NCBI RefSeq assembly: GCF_000761155.1
Contig: NZ_CP009533.1
Location: 2,542,001-2,606,000, forward strand
Source of the DNA: Pseudomonas rhizosphaerae
Lineage (GTDB): Bacteria > Pseudomonadota > Gammaproteobacteria > Pseudomonadales > Pseudomonadaceae
DNA: 64,000 nucleotides
Reading direction: 5' to 3'
The translations under genes and the position numbers were made by a program. Of the stretch, positions 6,331 to 46,071 are shown piece by piece; position 1 is the first letter of the stretch, and each line of letters starts with the position of its first letter. A model generated the notes under the pieces. The model did no database searches, had not been told where the DNA came from, and saw nothing but the letters and a program-made list of their open reading frames with translations.

Positions 6331-8641
<2,311 letters not shown>

Positions 8642-8711
8642 GGCTTGCAACGGCAACACCCCCAGCCCTGGCCTCGTGCCGGGGCTGACTTTTTCTGGCA
8701 CCTGAGATCTC

Positions 8712-8802
8712 TCGTAGGAGCGGTCATCGGCCGCGAAAAGGACAACGCGAATTGGCTGATGCACCGCGGTGCCTGGTTCGCGGCCACGGACCGCTCCTAC
8801 GA
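8712..8802. repeat. REPIN, GTAGGAGC...GCCGCGAA class
   Basis: Two REP copies face each other: the forward copy at about 8712-8737 and the inverted copy at 8777-8802, with 39 bases between them. Each REP has its own short hairpin (GGTCATCGGCC-type), and the pair can fold into one long cruciform. It fills the gap between idh and the Nudix gene. The spacer shares TGATGCACCGCGG with the copy near 14.3 kb. Confidence 0.85.
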
Positions 8803-41697: not shown

Positions 41698-41725
41698 ACT
41701 GCTTGCCATCATTCAGGAGGTCGTT

Positions 41726-42007
41726 ATGGCTACCCAAACATCCATGCTGCATGTCCGTGTCGATGATGACATCAAGGCTCAGGCCAACGCTGCTCTCGGC
41801 CATATGGGTATGAGCATGTCTGAAGCTGTTCGGATCTTTTTGCACCGTATTGCGGTTGATCAGGCTTTTCCACTAGAGCTAAAAGTTCCCAATGCGAAGA
41901 CCCGCTTGGCTATGTCCGAAGCGGAAGAGATCGTGCGAGATAAAAAGGCACGCTTTGAATCACTAGACGAGTTGTTCGATGACTTCAAGAAAAACAGCGG
42001 CGAGTAA
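41726..42007 (+). CDS. RelB/DinJ-family antitoxin
   Basis: A 93-residue antitoxin of type II toxin-antitoxin systems. The N-terminal half is a ribbon-helix-helix DNA-binding domain (SMLHVRVDDDIKAQANAALGHMGMSMSEAVRIFL), the C-terminal half would wrap around the toxin. The ATG at 41726 has a strong CAGGAGG site. Its 3' end overlaps the toxin gene by 29 bases in another frame. It likely represses its own operon through the palindrome just upstream. Confidence 0.9.
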   Translation: MATQTSMLHVRVDDDIKAQANAALGHMGMSMSEAVRIFLHRIAVDQAFPLELKVPNAKTRLAMSEAEEIVRDKKARFESLDELFDDFKKNSGE

Positions 42008-42311
42008 ACGTGCGACGTTACCTCGCGTGTCTGACTACGCGAGGACCTTCCTGAAAGATTGGGAGCGACTTTCCCGCTCCGGTCGTTTTGATCTCAACCG
42101 ACTCAAGGAAGTCATGATGCTGTTGGTCTCCAATAAAGGAGCTTTGGCGCCTGAATGGTTAGATCATCCATTGAAAGGAGACTGGGCTGGCTTTCGGGAA
42201 TGTCATGTCGGCGGGGATTTCCTGTTGATTTACCGCTTGGCTGCAGAAAGCAAACAAGATCAAATCGTATTCGTTCGAGCAGGAACCCACGCTGACCTCT
42301 TTGAAGACTAA
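41979..42311 (+). CDS. YafQ-family mRNA interferase toxin
   Basis: A 110-residue RelE-superfamily toxin of the YafQ branch, which cuts mRNA on the ribosome. The active-site residues line up with E. coli YafQ: H63 (LDHPLKG), H76 (RECHVGGD), D80, H104 and F108 (GTHADLF). The Trp that follows the Asp in E. coli YafQ is Phe here (F81). The first codons overlap the antitoxin gene; a GTG 16 codons in is a shorter alternative start. With the antitoxin it probably stabilises the accessory segment that includes the Hxs operon. Confidence 0.9.
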   Translation: MTSRKTAASKRATLPRVSDYARTFLKDWERLSRSGRFDLNRLKEVMMLLVSNKGALAPEWLDHPLKGDWAGFRECHVGGDFLLIYRLAAESKQDQIVFVRAGTHADLFED

Positions 42312-42447
42312 TGAAAACACTGGCGTTTTAGCTTATATCTGCTATGCGCTGCGACACTCGTGAGCGATTGTAAAAAAGATGATGGCATAACGCCCTGGCA
42401 ACCGGCAGAATCCACATGTTCTCAACGGATTTGAAGGACCGGTTCCG

Positions 42448-42747
42448 ATGACATGGCCAGTCACGCTGAAACTTGACAGCGCAGCCTACCCGCTCAGCGT
42501 TGTGCAACGCACTGCTTATTCCCTGGCCGACGCCGTCGCGATCCAGGTCGGTATTGAAGCCACTCAGATTAGCATCACGGCCCGCCCCGCTGAAGCAAGG
42601 CTAACCCTTTCCCCAGAGCAGGCTCGCTCGCTGATCCTCCAGCATCTGAACGACTTCGCCCTACGCGACCATATCAACCACGAAACAGCAGGGTTGCGCG
42701 TAGTCCTGGCCCGAGCCGCGCTCGCCGGATGTGGGGTTTCGCAGTGA
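42448..42747 (+). CDS. hxsD: His-Xaa-Ser system protein HxsD
   Basis: HxsD is the small companion of the His-Xaa-Ser system, a family group defined by its constant association with two radical-SAM proteins. The 99-residue product has a beta-rich first half and ends with the family signature region (LILQHLNDFALRDHI, matching the LLNDYxLRE pattern by which the family was named). AAGGA precedes the ATG by ten bases. It is the first gene of the operon, 136 bases after yafQ, and its stop overlaps hxsB. Its role is unknown; a carrier or recognition function for the maturases is my inference. Confidence 0.85.
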   Translation: MTWPVTLKLDSAAYPLSVVQRTAYSLADAVAIQVGIEATQISITARPAEARLTLSPEQARSLILQHLNDFALRDHINHETAGLRVVLARAALAGCGVSQ

Positions 42748-44231
42748 CCCTGATTGCGACAGACGCCAAGCACTACCGCTTGCTGCCTTTTCGATTCATG
42801 CGCATGAACACGGGACGTGACCGTGACATTCTGCTCACCTCCGATACCGGTGAGTATATGCACGTGAGTGACGCGCAGTTACGAGCCCTCAGTTACTTCG
42901 ACGTGCAACCCAGTACGCCTTTTTACAAGGACCTGCTGGCCCGCCACTTCATTTACGAACCGGACCGCCACGACCCGTTTCCGGAAATGGCTGCGCAGTA
43001 TCGCAGCCGCAAGGACTTCCTCTTCCAAGGCCCTACACTGCACTTGTTCGTAGTTACATTGCGCTGCAACCACACCTGCCAGTATTGCCAAGTATCGCGG
43101 GCGCCTCTGGGAGGATCTGGGCATGATCTATCAGAAGCGGATGCGCAGGCGGCGGTCCATCGTCTGTTCGAGTCGAACGCTTCCGCCCTGACTGTGGAGT
43201 TTCAGGGTGGCGAGCCGCTTCTAGCCTTCGAACGCATCCGCCAGATTGTCGAATGGATCGTTGAACGGAATGTGGTCGAACAACGGGACATCCAGTTCGT
43301 TATCACCACCACACTGCACCACCTGACAGAAGAGATACTCGACTTCGCAGAGCAAAATCACATCCAGTTTTCGACCTCACTGGATGGGCCGGCGCCCTTG
43401 CATAATGCCAACCGCCCTACGCCGTCACGAGACTCCTACGAACGTACTGTAAAAGGCATCCAGTGGGTCCGTGAGCGCCTTGGACATGATGCAGTTTCCG
43501 CGCTAACCACGCTGACCTCAAGAAGCCTCGAACAACCTGAAGCGATCATCGATGAGTATGTAAGCCAGGGCTTCTCCAGCATTTCGCTTCGGCCTCTTAG
43601 CCCTTATGGGTTTGCCACCAAAAGTGCTCATCGACTTGATTACCCTATTGAGCGATACCTGGCTTTCTACAAGAAGGCACTGGCCTATTTGTTGGATATC
43701 AACCAACAGGGTGTATACCTCTCGGAGAGTTATGCGAGCCTGTTGCTGAAGAATATCCTGACACCCTTCTCCTCCGGCTATGTAGACCTGCGTTCCCCTG
43801 CTGGCGCAGGTACTGCGGCGCTGGTCTACAACTATGACGGTTACGTCTATCCCTCGGACGAAGCCCGAATGTTGCTGGAGATGGGTGAAGACGGATTGAG
43901 GCTCGGCACCGTCCAGCAACCCTTGTCCGAATTACTCGCATCGCCCGTTATGAATGCGTTGCTCGCCAGTGGCGTAGCAGAGGCGCTGCCGGGCTGCTCC
44001 GATTGCGCACTTGTCCCGTACTGCGGTGCTGACCCCATCGAACACTATGCACGTCAAGCTGACCCGATCGGGCACCGAGTGTTCAGCAGCTTCTGCAAGA
44101 AGAACATGGGGCTGCTGAAGCATCTCTTCGGCCTGCTTTGCGATGGCGACGACAACGTACAGAGAGTACTGCTGTCCTGGTTGAACAGGCGCTCCTACAA
44201 CGATGTCCAGTTCCCCGGTTACGGGGGCTGA
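42744..44231 (+). CDS. hxsB: His-Xaa-Ser system radical SAM maturase HxsB
   Basis: A 495-residue radical-SAM enzyme. The SAM-cleaving 4Fe-4S cluster ligands are C108-x3-C112-x2-C115 (RCNHTCQYC), followed by the GGEP motif near 154-158. The C-terminus has a SPASM-like auxiliary cluster region with C418, C421, C427 and C451, typical of peptide-modifying enzymes. I take the GTG at 42744 that overlaps the hxsD stop (GTGA) as start; an ATG at 42729 is possible. It ends with TGATG shared with hxsC. By family association it should modify a peptide of the system, probably HxsA. Confidence 0.9.
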   Translation: MTLIATDAKHYRLLPFRFMRMNTGRDRDILLTSDTGEYMHVSDAQLRALSYFDVQPSTPFYKDLLARHFIYEPDRHDPFPEMAAQYRSRKDFLFQGPTLHLFVVTLRCNHTCQYCQVSRAPLGGSGHDLSEADAQAAVHRLFESNASALTVEFQGGEPLLAFERIRQIVEWIVERNVVEQRDIQFVITTTLHHLTEEILDFAEQNHIQFSTSLDGPAPLHNANRPTPSRDSYERTVKGIQWVRERLGHDAVSALTTLTSRSLEQPEAIIDEYVSQGFSSISLRPLSPYGFATKSAHRLDYPIERYLAFYKKALAYLLDINQQGVYLSESYASLLLKNILTPFSSGYVDLRSPAGAGTAALVYNYDGYVYPSDEARMLLEMGEDGLRLGTVQQPLSELLASPVMNALLASGVAEALPGCSDCALVPYCGADPIEHYARQADPIGHRVFSSFCKKNMGLLKHLFGLLCDGDDNVQRVLLSWLNRRSYNDVQFPGYGG

Positions 44232-45466
44232 TGGCGATGCTGCGCAAAGAGACCCACTTCGAAATCCATCACCTGAATGAGCCGAAGCTGCTCAAGGTTA
44301 TTACTCTGGATGAGTTCATCGAACAAGGTCTGGCGGTTTGTGCGGGAAGCGCTGAGTTCGGTGACCTGCTGCTTTGGCTGCCAAACGAAGAGCGGCTACG
44401 GAGCCCGCATCTGCTCTCATTACCAGTAGGTGGTTTTCTGATCCCGGAGCCATTGATCGGCGACTTCGACAGCGCGCGGCCACACCTGCACACGCCCAAA
44501 GATGCGGATGTCGTGCAGCCCGGCGATGTCATTGCTATCACACCCGGTAACCCATTGGTGCGAGTGCTCTATCGACGAGGCTCGGACAGCAACCTGCTGT
44601 TCATGACCGATCGTTGCAACAGCCTCTGTTTGATGTGTTCGCAGCCGCCCAAAGATATCGATGACCGCTGGCATACCGAGGAGAACCTACGGCTGATCGA
44701 CCTGATGGACCGAGTCGAGGAAAATCTGGGAATCAGCGGCGGAGAACCAACGCTTTATCGCGACGGCCTGCTCGAAATTCTGGCGAAATGCAAAGCTGTT
44801 CTGCCGCAGAAATCCATTCACGTGCTCAGCAACGGGCGTCTGTTCCAAGATCCGAGCTGGATCGCGGCGCTCTCTGCCATAGGACACCCTCAGCTGAGCT
44901 GGGGTATCCCGCTGTATGCCGACAATGCTGAAGACCATGACCATGTGGTGCAGGCACCAGGCGCGTTCAGCGAAACCCTGCAAGGTCTTTACAATCTGGC
45001 GCGCGCCAACCAGATCATCGAGATACGCGTGGTGCTCAATCGCCTGACCACGCCACGCTTGCCAGAACTCGCCCACTACGTGTTCAGAAACCTGCCCTTC
45101 GTGCGACATGTTGCGCTGATGGGGATCGAGAGTACCGGCCTGGCCAGGAAGAACTACGGAGAATTGTGGATTGACCCGCTGGACTATCAAAAACCGTTGA
45201 GCGAGGCCGTGTATTTCCTGTTCAACCGAGGAGTACCGGTTTCAATCTACAACTTGCCCTTATGCGTGATCCCGGCCCATCTCTCGCGTTTCGCCCGCCA
45301 AAGTATCTCGGATTGGAAGAACTTGTTCATCGATACCTGCCAGCAATGCGCTGCCGTCAAACATTGCTCTGGTTTCTTCAAATCCCACACCGACCGTTGG
45401 CAAAGCCGCGGTGTACAACGACTATCGACCGAGGCCTTCAGCGCCCGTGCAAGGAGTGCACAGTGA
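44231..45466 (+). CDS. hxsC: His-Xaa-Ser system radical SAM maturase HxsC
   Basis: The second radical-SAM enzyme of the pair, 411 residues. After an unusual N-terminal domain of about 120 residues comes C129-x3-C133-x2-C136 (RCNSLCLMC) and GISGGEPT at 167-174. Further cysteines at 345, 370, 373 and 379 could bind an auxiliary cluster. The start overlaps the hxsB stop by one base; an ATG two codons later is possible. The stop overlaps hxsA by four bases. Two different maturases in one operon suggest two successive modifications or a heterodimer; neither is proven. Confidence 0.9.
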   Translation: MAMLRKETHFEIHHLNEPKLLKVITLDEFIEQGLAVCAGSAEFGDLLLWLPNEERLRSPHLLSLPVGGFLIPEPLIGDFDSARPHLHTPKDADVVQPGDVIAITPGNPLVRVLYRRGSDSNLLFMTDRCNSLCLMCSQPPKDIDDRWHTEENLRLIDLMDRVEENLGISGGEPTLYRDGLLEILAKCKAVLPQKSIHVLSNGRLFQDPSWIAALSAIGHPQLSWGIPLYADNAEDHDHVVQAPGAFSETLQGLYNLARANQIIEIRVVLNRLTTPRLPELAHYVFRNLPFVRHVALMGIESTGLARKNYGELWIDPLDYQKPLSEAVYFLFNRGVPVSIYNLPLCVIPAHLSRFARQSISDWKNLFIDTCQQCAAVKHCSGFFKSHTDRWQSRGVQRLSTEAFSARARSAQ

Positions 45467-46071
45467 AATTGCTCGACCGCTGGAAAGTCCTGATCAGTGG
45501 GATAAGCCTGCTGCCAATGGCGGGTACCACCCTTGCGCAGGCGGGCCATCTGTCGCTCGCCGATGCGAACTGGCAACCCAACGACAAGCTACAGCCCCCG
45601 GTATTCGCCGATACGCTCAATGCGCCAGACGCCGTCAACATCTATGCGGCACATCGCTCGCACAGTTCTCACCGGTCTCATAGTTCGCACAGCTCTCACT
45701 ACAGCGGCTCGGGTGGCTATAGCGCACCTCGCTATTACAGCCCGCCCGCTACCAGCACCCAAAGCTACAGCGCGCCGAGTGCTTCAAGCAGCACCCCAAG
45801 CCGCAATAACCTCTATCAATCGTCTGACACTACTAACGAGACAAGTTCGAGCACTTCGAAGAGCCGCGCGACCAATGAGCAGAAAAACGACCTGGTCACC
45901 CGGGTGCAAACCGCGCTCATGGTCCGCCAGTATTACCAAGGCCCCATTGATGGGGTGATGGGCAAAGCGACACGTGGTGCATTGATGGCCTTTCAGATGG
46001 ACAGTGGGCTGACCATAAACGGCCGGATGGATACACCATCGTTGAATGCGTTGGGTATCAAGATTCCATAA
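45463..46071 (+). CDS. hxsA: His-Xaa-Ser repeat protein HxsA, exported, peptidoglycan-binding
   Basis: The likely substrate of the system. The 202-residue product has a Sec signal peptide (residues 1-27, cut after LAQA), six consecutive His-Xaa-Ser triplets at 64-81 (middle residues Arg, Ser, Arg, Ser, Ser, Tyr), a Ser/Tyr/Pro-rich low-complexity linker to about 135, and a C-terminal peptidoglycan-binding domain (about 142-202, QTALMVRQYYQGPIDGVMGKATRGAL). The start is a GTG overlapping the hxsC stop, with AAGGAG upstream. The layout predicts a modified His/Ser tract held at the cell wall. What the modification is and does is unknown. Confidence 0.9.
   Translation: MKLLDRWKVLISGISLLPMAGTTLAQAGHLSLADANWQPNDKLQPPVFADTLNAPDAVNIYAAHRSHSSHRSHSSHSSHYSGSGGYSAPRYYSPPATSTQSYSAPSASSSTPSRNNLYQSSDTTNETSSSTSKSRATNEQKNDLVTRVQTALMVRQYYQGPIDGVMGKATRGALMAFQMDSGLTINGRMDTPSLNALGIKIP

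Follow-up and report, generated by a model that had tools for sequence, protein, structure and literature searches.

An apparently mobile Hxs operon in Pseudomonas rhizosphaerae and the predicted modification of its His-Xaa-Ser repeat protein

We identify a complete hxsD-hxsB-hxsC-hxsA operon at 42448-46071 of a 64,000-nucleotide stretch of the Pseudomonas rhizosphaerae genome (hereafter the window; contig NZ_CP009533.1, positions 2,542,001 to 2,606,000) and find it to be a well-defined, mobile example of the catalogued Hxs (His-Xaa-Ser) system. The open reading frames (ORFs), read directly, confirm the four intact genes and the overlaps GTGA, TGATG and GTGA that a first-pass annotation of this DNA had described, and all four proteins score above their curated NCBIfam cut-offs in the Hxs model search that the same annotation had named as a check (Table 1). 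The genome holds a single HxsB and a single HxsA above cut-off. With the same four proteins and the same repeat, the operon shows no essential difference from the Hxs system of TIGR03976, TIGR03977, TIGR03978 and TIGR03979, and the earlier description of it as the best candidate for an undescribed system is not supported: NCBIfam names all four parts as well as the variants HxsA2, HxsA3, HxsA4 and HxsC4, and the accessible text of PMC9062424 attributes the His-Xaa-Ser motif, together with HxsB and HxsC, to Haft and Basu and mentions HxsB as an enzyme that had already been annotated. The names of the Hxs genes come from computational work, and excerpts of two genome surveys use them (PMC8446631, PMC6537148). 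In keeping with the earlier claim of a family lacking an assigned product or chemistry, no product, chemistry or function turned up in the portions of the open-access literature searched, a search that could miss reports in subscription journals. To the known picture we add the mobility of the operon, which the first-pass annotation had missed and which is our strongest new observation, the varying domains behind the repeat and a predicted RRE-like part in the HxsB model. We propose, with slightly less than even confidence, that the operon is a mobile, self-contained cassette that makes a three-residue ring from each His-x-Ser triplet of an exported and anchored HxsA, yielding an ordered imidazole array suited to metal binding.

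Horizontal acquisition of the operon is strongly indicated by a low-GC (guanine plus cytosine) insertion, a near-empty site in a congener, silent-site likeness above that of neighbouring genes, and relatives on plasmids and in a phage record. The genes that flank the inserted segment, LysR on its left and MFS on its right, are separated by no more than 99 unaligned bases in congener G446; in G416, a second congener without hxs, they enclose ~2.5 kb that shows no similarity to the window. The LysR side is common to G469 and the MFS side to G413; in both genomes the homologous hxs DNA runs from 42369 to ~46080 at 92-93% identity. Fourfold-site identity of the four hxs genes is 0.76-0.87 (G469, G413, G286 and G444), against 0.52-0.66 for the flanking genes shared in those genomes, a comparison that excludes one 30%-identical, non-orthologous SDR match in G444; a fifth genome, G441, gives a lower hxs value of 0.54-0.66 and has no shared flank. 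Recent exchange of hxs between species is the simplest reading of these figures, with stronger codon constraint on hxs as an alternative that may account for the likeness. Several species keep the same LysR gene beside hxs, which is as compatible with long-standing residence and recombination as with repeated insertion. The cassette can also be lost, since a close congener with a 99% identical LysR protein (G439) retains at this site nothing but short remnants of hxsB and hxsC (L198, G439:C1:286000-299000).

Relatives of the operon are found on mobile elements. Plasmid records matching HxsC at E <=1e-5 number 435 of 72,556, with 12 of them covering 80% or more of the query; 349 of the 435 are typed conjugative and 333 come from Klebsiella, an excess due to sampling. 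An Aeromonas salmonicida plasmid is annotated with the whole of hxsDBCA, and another set lies complete between a mercury-resistance operon and the IncFII repA gene of the conjugative Klebsiella pneumoniae ST307 plasmid NZ_CP103688.1 (L169). HxsB matches 8 of 50,697 records in a phage collection, three over most of its length, among them Leptospira phage LE1 (KF114877.1, L166), in which hxsA-hxsD-hxsB-hxsC precedes a gene annotated 'mobilome CxxCx(11)CxxC protein'. IMG/VR contains 18 loci with an HxsC match, and PHROG families match HxsC strongly (347 bits), HxsB strongly (152 and 131 bits) and the HxsA repeat weakly (23 bits).

Two observations stand beside these. The insertion in the window also holds a RelB antitoxin and a YafQ/RelE-type toxin (41717-42311, GC ~0.50), a pair that has no match at the hxs locus of either G469 or G413 and is apparently a separate arrival. 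A record titled Pantoea sp. Cy-639 (L072) encodes an HxsB 95% identical to that of the window, either a recent transfer or a mislabelled pseudomonad.

To characterize linkage we used a set of 104 loci, made up of the best 80 of 561 loci from named genomes, which leans the set towards close kin, and 24 further loci, the window's own included; at least four loci recur in both sources. hxsC directly follows hxsB in 103 of these, and an ORF with tandem His-x-Ser (HxS) units lies on the same strand in 102, once at ~3 kb distance (L145). The two loci lacking such an ORF are L124, whose contig is 4.4 kb long, and L112, which has neither an intact hxsC nor a repeat; L078 has only a shortened hxsB reading frame. 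A candidate hxsD ORF precedes hxsB in 94 loci, some plainly chance frames; 68 candidates passed a loose C-terminal motif filter, two of the loci having been let through without it, and some alphaproteobacterial loci have no hxsD ORF in the place searched before hxsB. Only hxsA, hxsB, hxsC and hxsD are widely shared neighbours. Among the top 45 neighbour clusters no other exceeds 14 members, the two largest being flank genes common mainly to pseudomonads, and Pfam assigns 112 families to 131 neighbour proteins, with no family recurring in more than two of them. PADLOC gives 82 families on these 131 neighbours, the 25 listed including single-protein matches to AbiU, Tin/Old, ZorE, Rmr and AriA and two HNH proteins; we claim no defence role from this comparison, which had no control set.

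HxsB scores above cut-off in 14 of 398 genomes drawn from the phylum and 9 of 79 from the genus, the window's own genome counted in each, and the distribution is therefore patchy. A tree of 57 HxsB sequences less than 90% identical spans seven named phyla (Pseudomonadota 41, Myxococcota 6, Bacteroidota 3, Acidobacteriota 2, three other phyla one each, and two rows without a phylum), and the HxS array is present in six of them, the sole Planctomycetota row being L124, without an array on its short contig. In this quick, midpoint-rooted tree the two main clades correspond to hxsA lying downstream or upstream of the maturase genes, with two exceptions (L142, L147) in the upstream clade.

HxsA runs from an export signal through a 36-residue spacer ending NIYAA and six HxS triplets to a Ser/Gly/Pro-rich linker and a PG_binding_1 domain, and a simple home-made signal heuristic is satisfied by 97 of 102 HxsA-like ORFs. 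The array cannot be chance, because none of 20,000 shuffles of HxsA gave more than two tandem units and a run of at least two units occurs nowhere else in the six frames of the window. Across the locus set the array is unbroken and 3-10 units long in 102 of 104 loci, most often six (62/102). In the 526 units of 87 non-redundant arrays, where the search pattern itself dictates His and Ser, Xaa is S in 246, R in 157, Y in 68, A in 42 and another residue in 13; the Ser codons are TCN in 415 and AGY in 111, and the His codons CAC in 294 and CAT in 232. Selection acts on the triplet at the protein level, because unbroken runs adjoin the maturases and use mixed codons. An origin of the array by DNA slippage was rejected on account of the mixture of TCN and AGY Ser codons. 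The first Xaa is mostly R (76/102 arrays), the last mostly Y (69/102), and no array contains Cys. We infer that the triplet is the part modified.

What follows the array varies. Ten or more residues stand behind it in 81 of 102 HxsA proteins, and in 21 it lies at the very C-terminus (<10 residues after); combined with gene position, 72 are downstream and long, 20 upstream and short, nine upstream and long, and one downstream and short. We scanned with Pfam seven unusual HxsA proteins and the window's own. The Caulobacter protein (L117) has PG_binding_1 and TonB_C behind the repeat, that of Sorangium (L141) has PEGA in place of PG_binding_1 (23.5 bits, cut-off 20.8), those of Brevundimonas and Dyadobacter have PG_binding_1, and no Pfam match was found in those of Geminisphaera and Nannocystis or in the longer HxsA of an Eremiobacterota locus. 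PG_binding_1, TonB_C and PEGA are all envelope-type domains, and we read this domain content as suggesting one modifiable array presented on varying anchor domains. The first-pass expectation of a cell-wall product is reasonable for the window's HxsA, but the picture is broader across the family, in which the post-repeat domain varies by lineage and the 21 short relatives end after the repeat. Forms also occur together: congener G455 carries two versions of the system ~50 kb apart, one with an upstream-short and one with a downstream-long hxsA (L060, L067), and at Eremiobacterota locus L137 a long and a short HxsA gene stand next to each other (7659-8474, 8497-8784), ahead of a single maturase set.

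Both HxsB and HxsC contain the radical S-adenosylmethionine (SAM) domain PF04055, which, with the exported repeat protein and its peptidoglycan-binding domain, bears out the earlier account of the operon's parts. In 54 aligned HxsB sequences the auxiliary cysteines C418, C421 and C427 are invariant and C451 is kept in at least 90%; in HxsC the core C129/C133/C136 and auxiliary C345/C370/C373/C379 are invariant in 15 sequences, the core motif being found in 103/103 loci and the auxiliary cysteines in 102/103. The AlphaFold model of HxsB (predicted local distance difference test, pLDDT, 92.3) matches 5wgg, which we take to be the SCIFF-type maturase CteB, over nearly its full length, N-terminus included, and HxsB is predicted to resemble CteB, the anaerobic sulfatase maturase anSME and the cyclophane synthase ChlB. 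An RRE (RiPP precursor recognition element) is a winged helix of three strands followed by three helices, and the N-terminus of the HxsB model, which aligns with 5wgg from model residue 15 and with TigE from residue 5, is predicted to form an RRE-like domain; the isolated N-terminal piece of four HxsB proteins gave no RRE-type Pfam match. HxsD has a predicted beta-alpha-beta-beta-long-alpha, ferredoxin-like fold (pLDDT 93.5), and its model found no significant fold match in the PDB.

We propose that HxsA, synthesized with a Sec signal, would be bound in the cytoplasm by the RRE-like domain of HxsB through the stretch preceding the repeat, and that HxsB and HxsC, aided by HxsD, would then act along the triplets by radical SAM chemistry. 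In the likeliest product each triplet would gain a single C-C bond, joining an imidazole carbon of His(i) with the C-beta of Ser(i+2), giving a row of three-residue cyclophanes that would turn the array into a rigid rod of stapled imidazoles. Sec export would follow modification, the C-terminal domain (peptidoglycan-binding in the window) would anchor the rod in the envelope, and the ordered imidazoles could, we conjecture, suit it to metal binding. Precedents exist for each half of such a ring: the available part of PMC11002830 describes His C2 to C-beta bonds made by HaaB, ScaB and YhhB and a Phe C4 to Ser C-beta bond made by MscB, and a reference title in PMC12636437, itself accessible in part, names ChlB a multiple cyclophane synthase. 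H-x-S is a cross of the two, and every unit offers an aromatic residue with a C-beta donor two residues on, a match of spacing only. Because of this cross and the resemblance to ChlB, a three-residue ring is our best single guess, with about an even chance at most, limited because HxsB lies below every listed cyclophane-family cut-off and its nearest enzymes include other chemistries. Each ring would remove two hydrogens, ~-2.016 Da per triplet and ~-12.1 Da for six; mass alone would not be decisive, since conversion of Ser to formylglycine also loses 2.016 Da. This compact operon, with ~3.6 kb, one substrate, a clear array and a sharply predicted mass, is well suited to testing, and predictions for mass and nuclear magnetic resonance make both the chemistry and the role of Hxs testable. 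If the prediction is true, an anchored protein would be shown to carry His-Ser rings formed in tandem, which would help to explain why the cassette is shared among plasmids, one phage record and numerous bacteria that are not related.

Several points weigh against ring formation as we propose it. Among the matches listed (25 of 54 NCBIfam families), HxsB scores far below the cut-offs of the cyclophane maturases (YhhB 72.4/445, GrrM/OscB 60.5/310, FxsB 48.4/370, AmcB 47/425 and XyeB 33.7/450 bits). Outside Hxs it scores best against the ranthipeptide maturase PapB (97.7 bits), and enzymes that do not form cyclophanes are among its best fold matches; family resemblance therefore leaves the chemistry of HxsB unfixed. 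SPASM enzymes hold two auxiliary clusters; beyond its core motif, HxsB conserves only C418, C421, C427 and C451, the cysteines for one. The HxsB N-terminus is reached only by 5wgg/5why and TigE, SuiB and SkfB aligning from residues 87-93 only. Cyclophane formation by one enzyme does not explain the almost constant presence of a second radical SAM enzyme, nor does the proposed mechanism explain HxsD, for which no candidate ORF lies where it was looked for in 10 of the 104 loci.

Among other explanations, the likeliest is that HxsB and HxsC modify the repeat differently, by anSME-like Ser oxidation, an ether or C-N link to an imidazole nitrogen, epimerisation or two enzyme-specific marks, which we regard as rather unlikely. 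HxsB falls short of the anaerobic sulfatase-maturase model TIGR03942 (59.5 vs 349.45 bits). Thioether chemistry needs Cys, which the arrays lack. Characterised three-residue ring enzymes, in the available text of PMC11002830, use just this i to i+2 arrangement of one aromatic residue and one C-beta donor. We consider doubtful a more specific form of our proposal, in which Hxs would be a mobile cassette building a novel envelope component, a covalently stapled rod of tandem His-Ser cyclophanes displayed on varying envelope anchors (peptidoglycan-binding with or without TonB_C, or PEGA), which would provide the carrier with ordered imidazoles beyond the cytoplasmic membrane for metal capture or envelope protection; if true, it would make Hxs a protein modification and not a released natural product, carried by plasmids and phages as a fitness gene.

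It is improbable that modified HxsA is instead cleaved to release a diffusible antibiotic or metallophore, as in an ordinary ribosomally synthesized and post-translationally modified peptide. A small product is conceivable where the array ends the protein, and Ala usually stands at -2 from the first His (AA in 43 and AG in 25 of 102), but most arrays are followed by a longer tail, in the window a peptidoglycan-binding domain, and the 131 neighbours include no protease or transporter as a widely shared gene. Least of all do we expect the repeat to work unmodified as a His-rich metal binder, with another substrate for the radical SAM enzymes: His-rich repeats can bind metals without modification and the Klebsiella plasmid copy adjoins a mercury-resistance operon, but the four hxs genes are one another's only widely shared partners and His-only metal binding does not demand unbroken triplets with Ser in third place.

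Compared with known systems, the triceptide enzymes (YhhB, HaaB, MscB, GrrM, FxsB, XyeB and ChlB) are likewise of radical SAM/SPASM type and pair an aromatic residue with a C-beta donor two on, whereas Hxs has in addition a second radical SAM enzyme, HxsD and an exported protein substrate mostly with a long tail. The SCIFF/PapB-type ranthipeptide maturases share with HxsB a nearly full-length model match (5wgg) and supply its best family score outside Hxs (PapB), but HxsB stands beside Cys-free arrays and keeps fewer auxiliary cysteines. TvgB, a repeat-modifying radical SAM enzyme grouped with TigE, converts Val to cyclopropylglycine and has no His-Ser array.

Table 1. Features of the hxs insertion in the window
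Feature	Coordinates	Strand	Description and evidence
Inserted segment	41484..46240	.	4757 bp, RelB/YafQ-type pair and hxs operon; GC 0.555 vs flanks 0.646 and 0.606 (5 kb)
Upstream stretch conserved with the operon	42369..42447	+	Promoter/ribosome-binding region; homology unit start in G469, G413
hxsD	42448..42747	+	99 aa small partner protein; TIGR03976 67.2 bits, cut-off 50
hxsB	42744..44231	+	495 aa radical SAM/SPASM-like maturase, GTG start; TIGR03978 570.3 bits, cut-off 370
HxsB residues 13-94, predicted RRE-like	42780..43025	+	Three strands then helices; DSSP on AlphaFold model
HxsB CxxxCxxC radical SAM cluster motif (C108, C112, C115)	43065..43088	+	Invariant in 54 aligned HxsB; regex 103/104 loci
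HxsB auxiliary-cluster cysteines C418, C421, C427, C451	43995..44096	+	One cluster's worth; regex 103/104 loci
hxsC	44231..45466	+	411 aa second radical SAM maturase; TIGR03977 381.3 bits, cut-off 267.9
hxsA	45463..46071	+	202 aa predicted substrate protein, GTG start; TIGR03979 250.5 bits, cut-off 121.65
HxsA export signal, residues 1-27	45463..45543	+	MKLLDRWK... to AQA; read from sequence
Six tandem His-Xaa-Ser triplets, HxsA residues 64-81	45652..45705	+	Predicted modified core; HRS HSS HRS HSS HSS HYS
PG_binding_1 domain, HxsA residues 142-197	45886..46053	+	PF01471 41.8 bits, cut-off 23

Minor features complete the picture of the operon. An in-frame ATG at 42729 offers an alternative start for hxsB. 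The stretch immediately upstream of hxsD is matched in 22 of 33 pseudomonad-type loci searched. A candidate RNA element there was rejected, because the region 42369-42500 folds no better than shuffles (z 0.75) and its outer stem is not kept, by eye, among the 22 aligned relatives; Rfam gave no match upstream of hxsD up to E 1. At three short-HxsA loci (L121, L129 and L144) a small gene, weakly methyltransferase-like in L121, lies just after hxsC on the same strand and is possibly an extra tailoring step, and at L140 a relative of this gene is found on the other side and the other strand.

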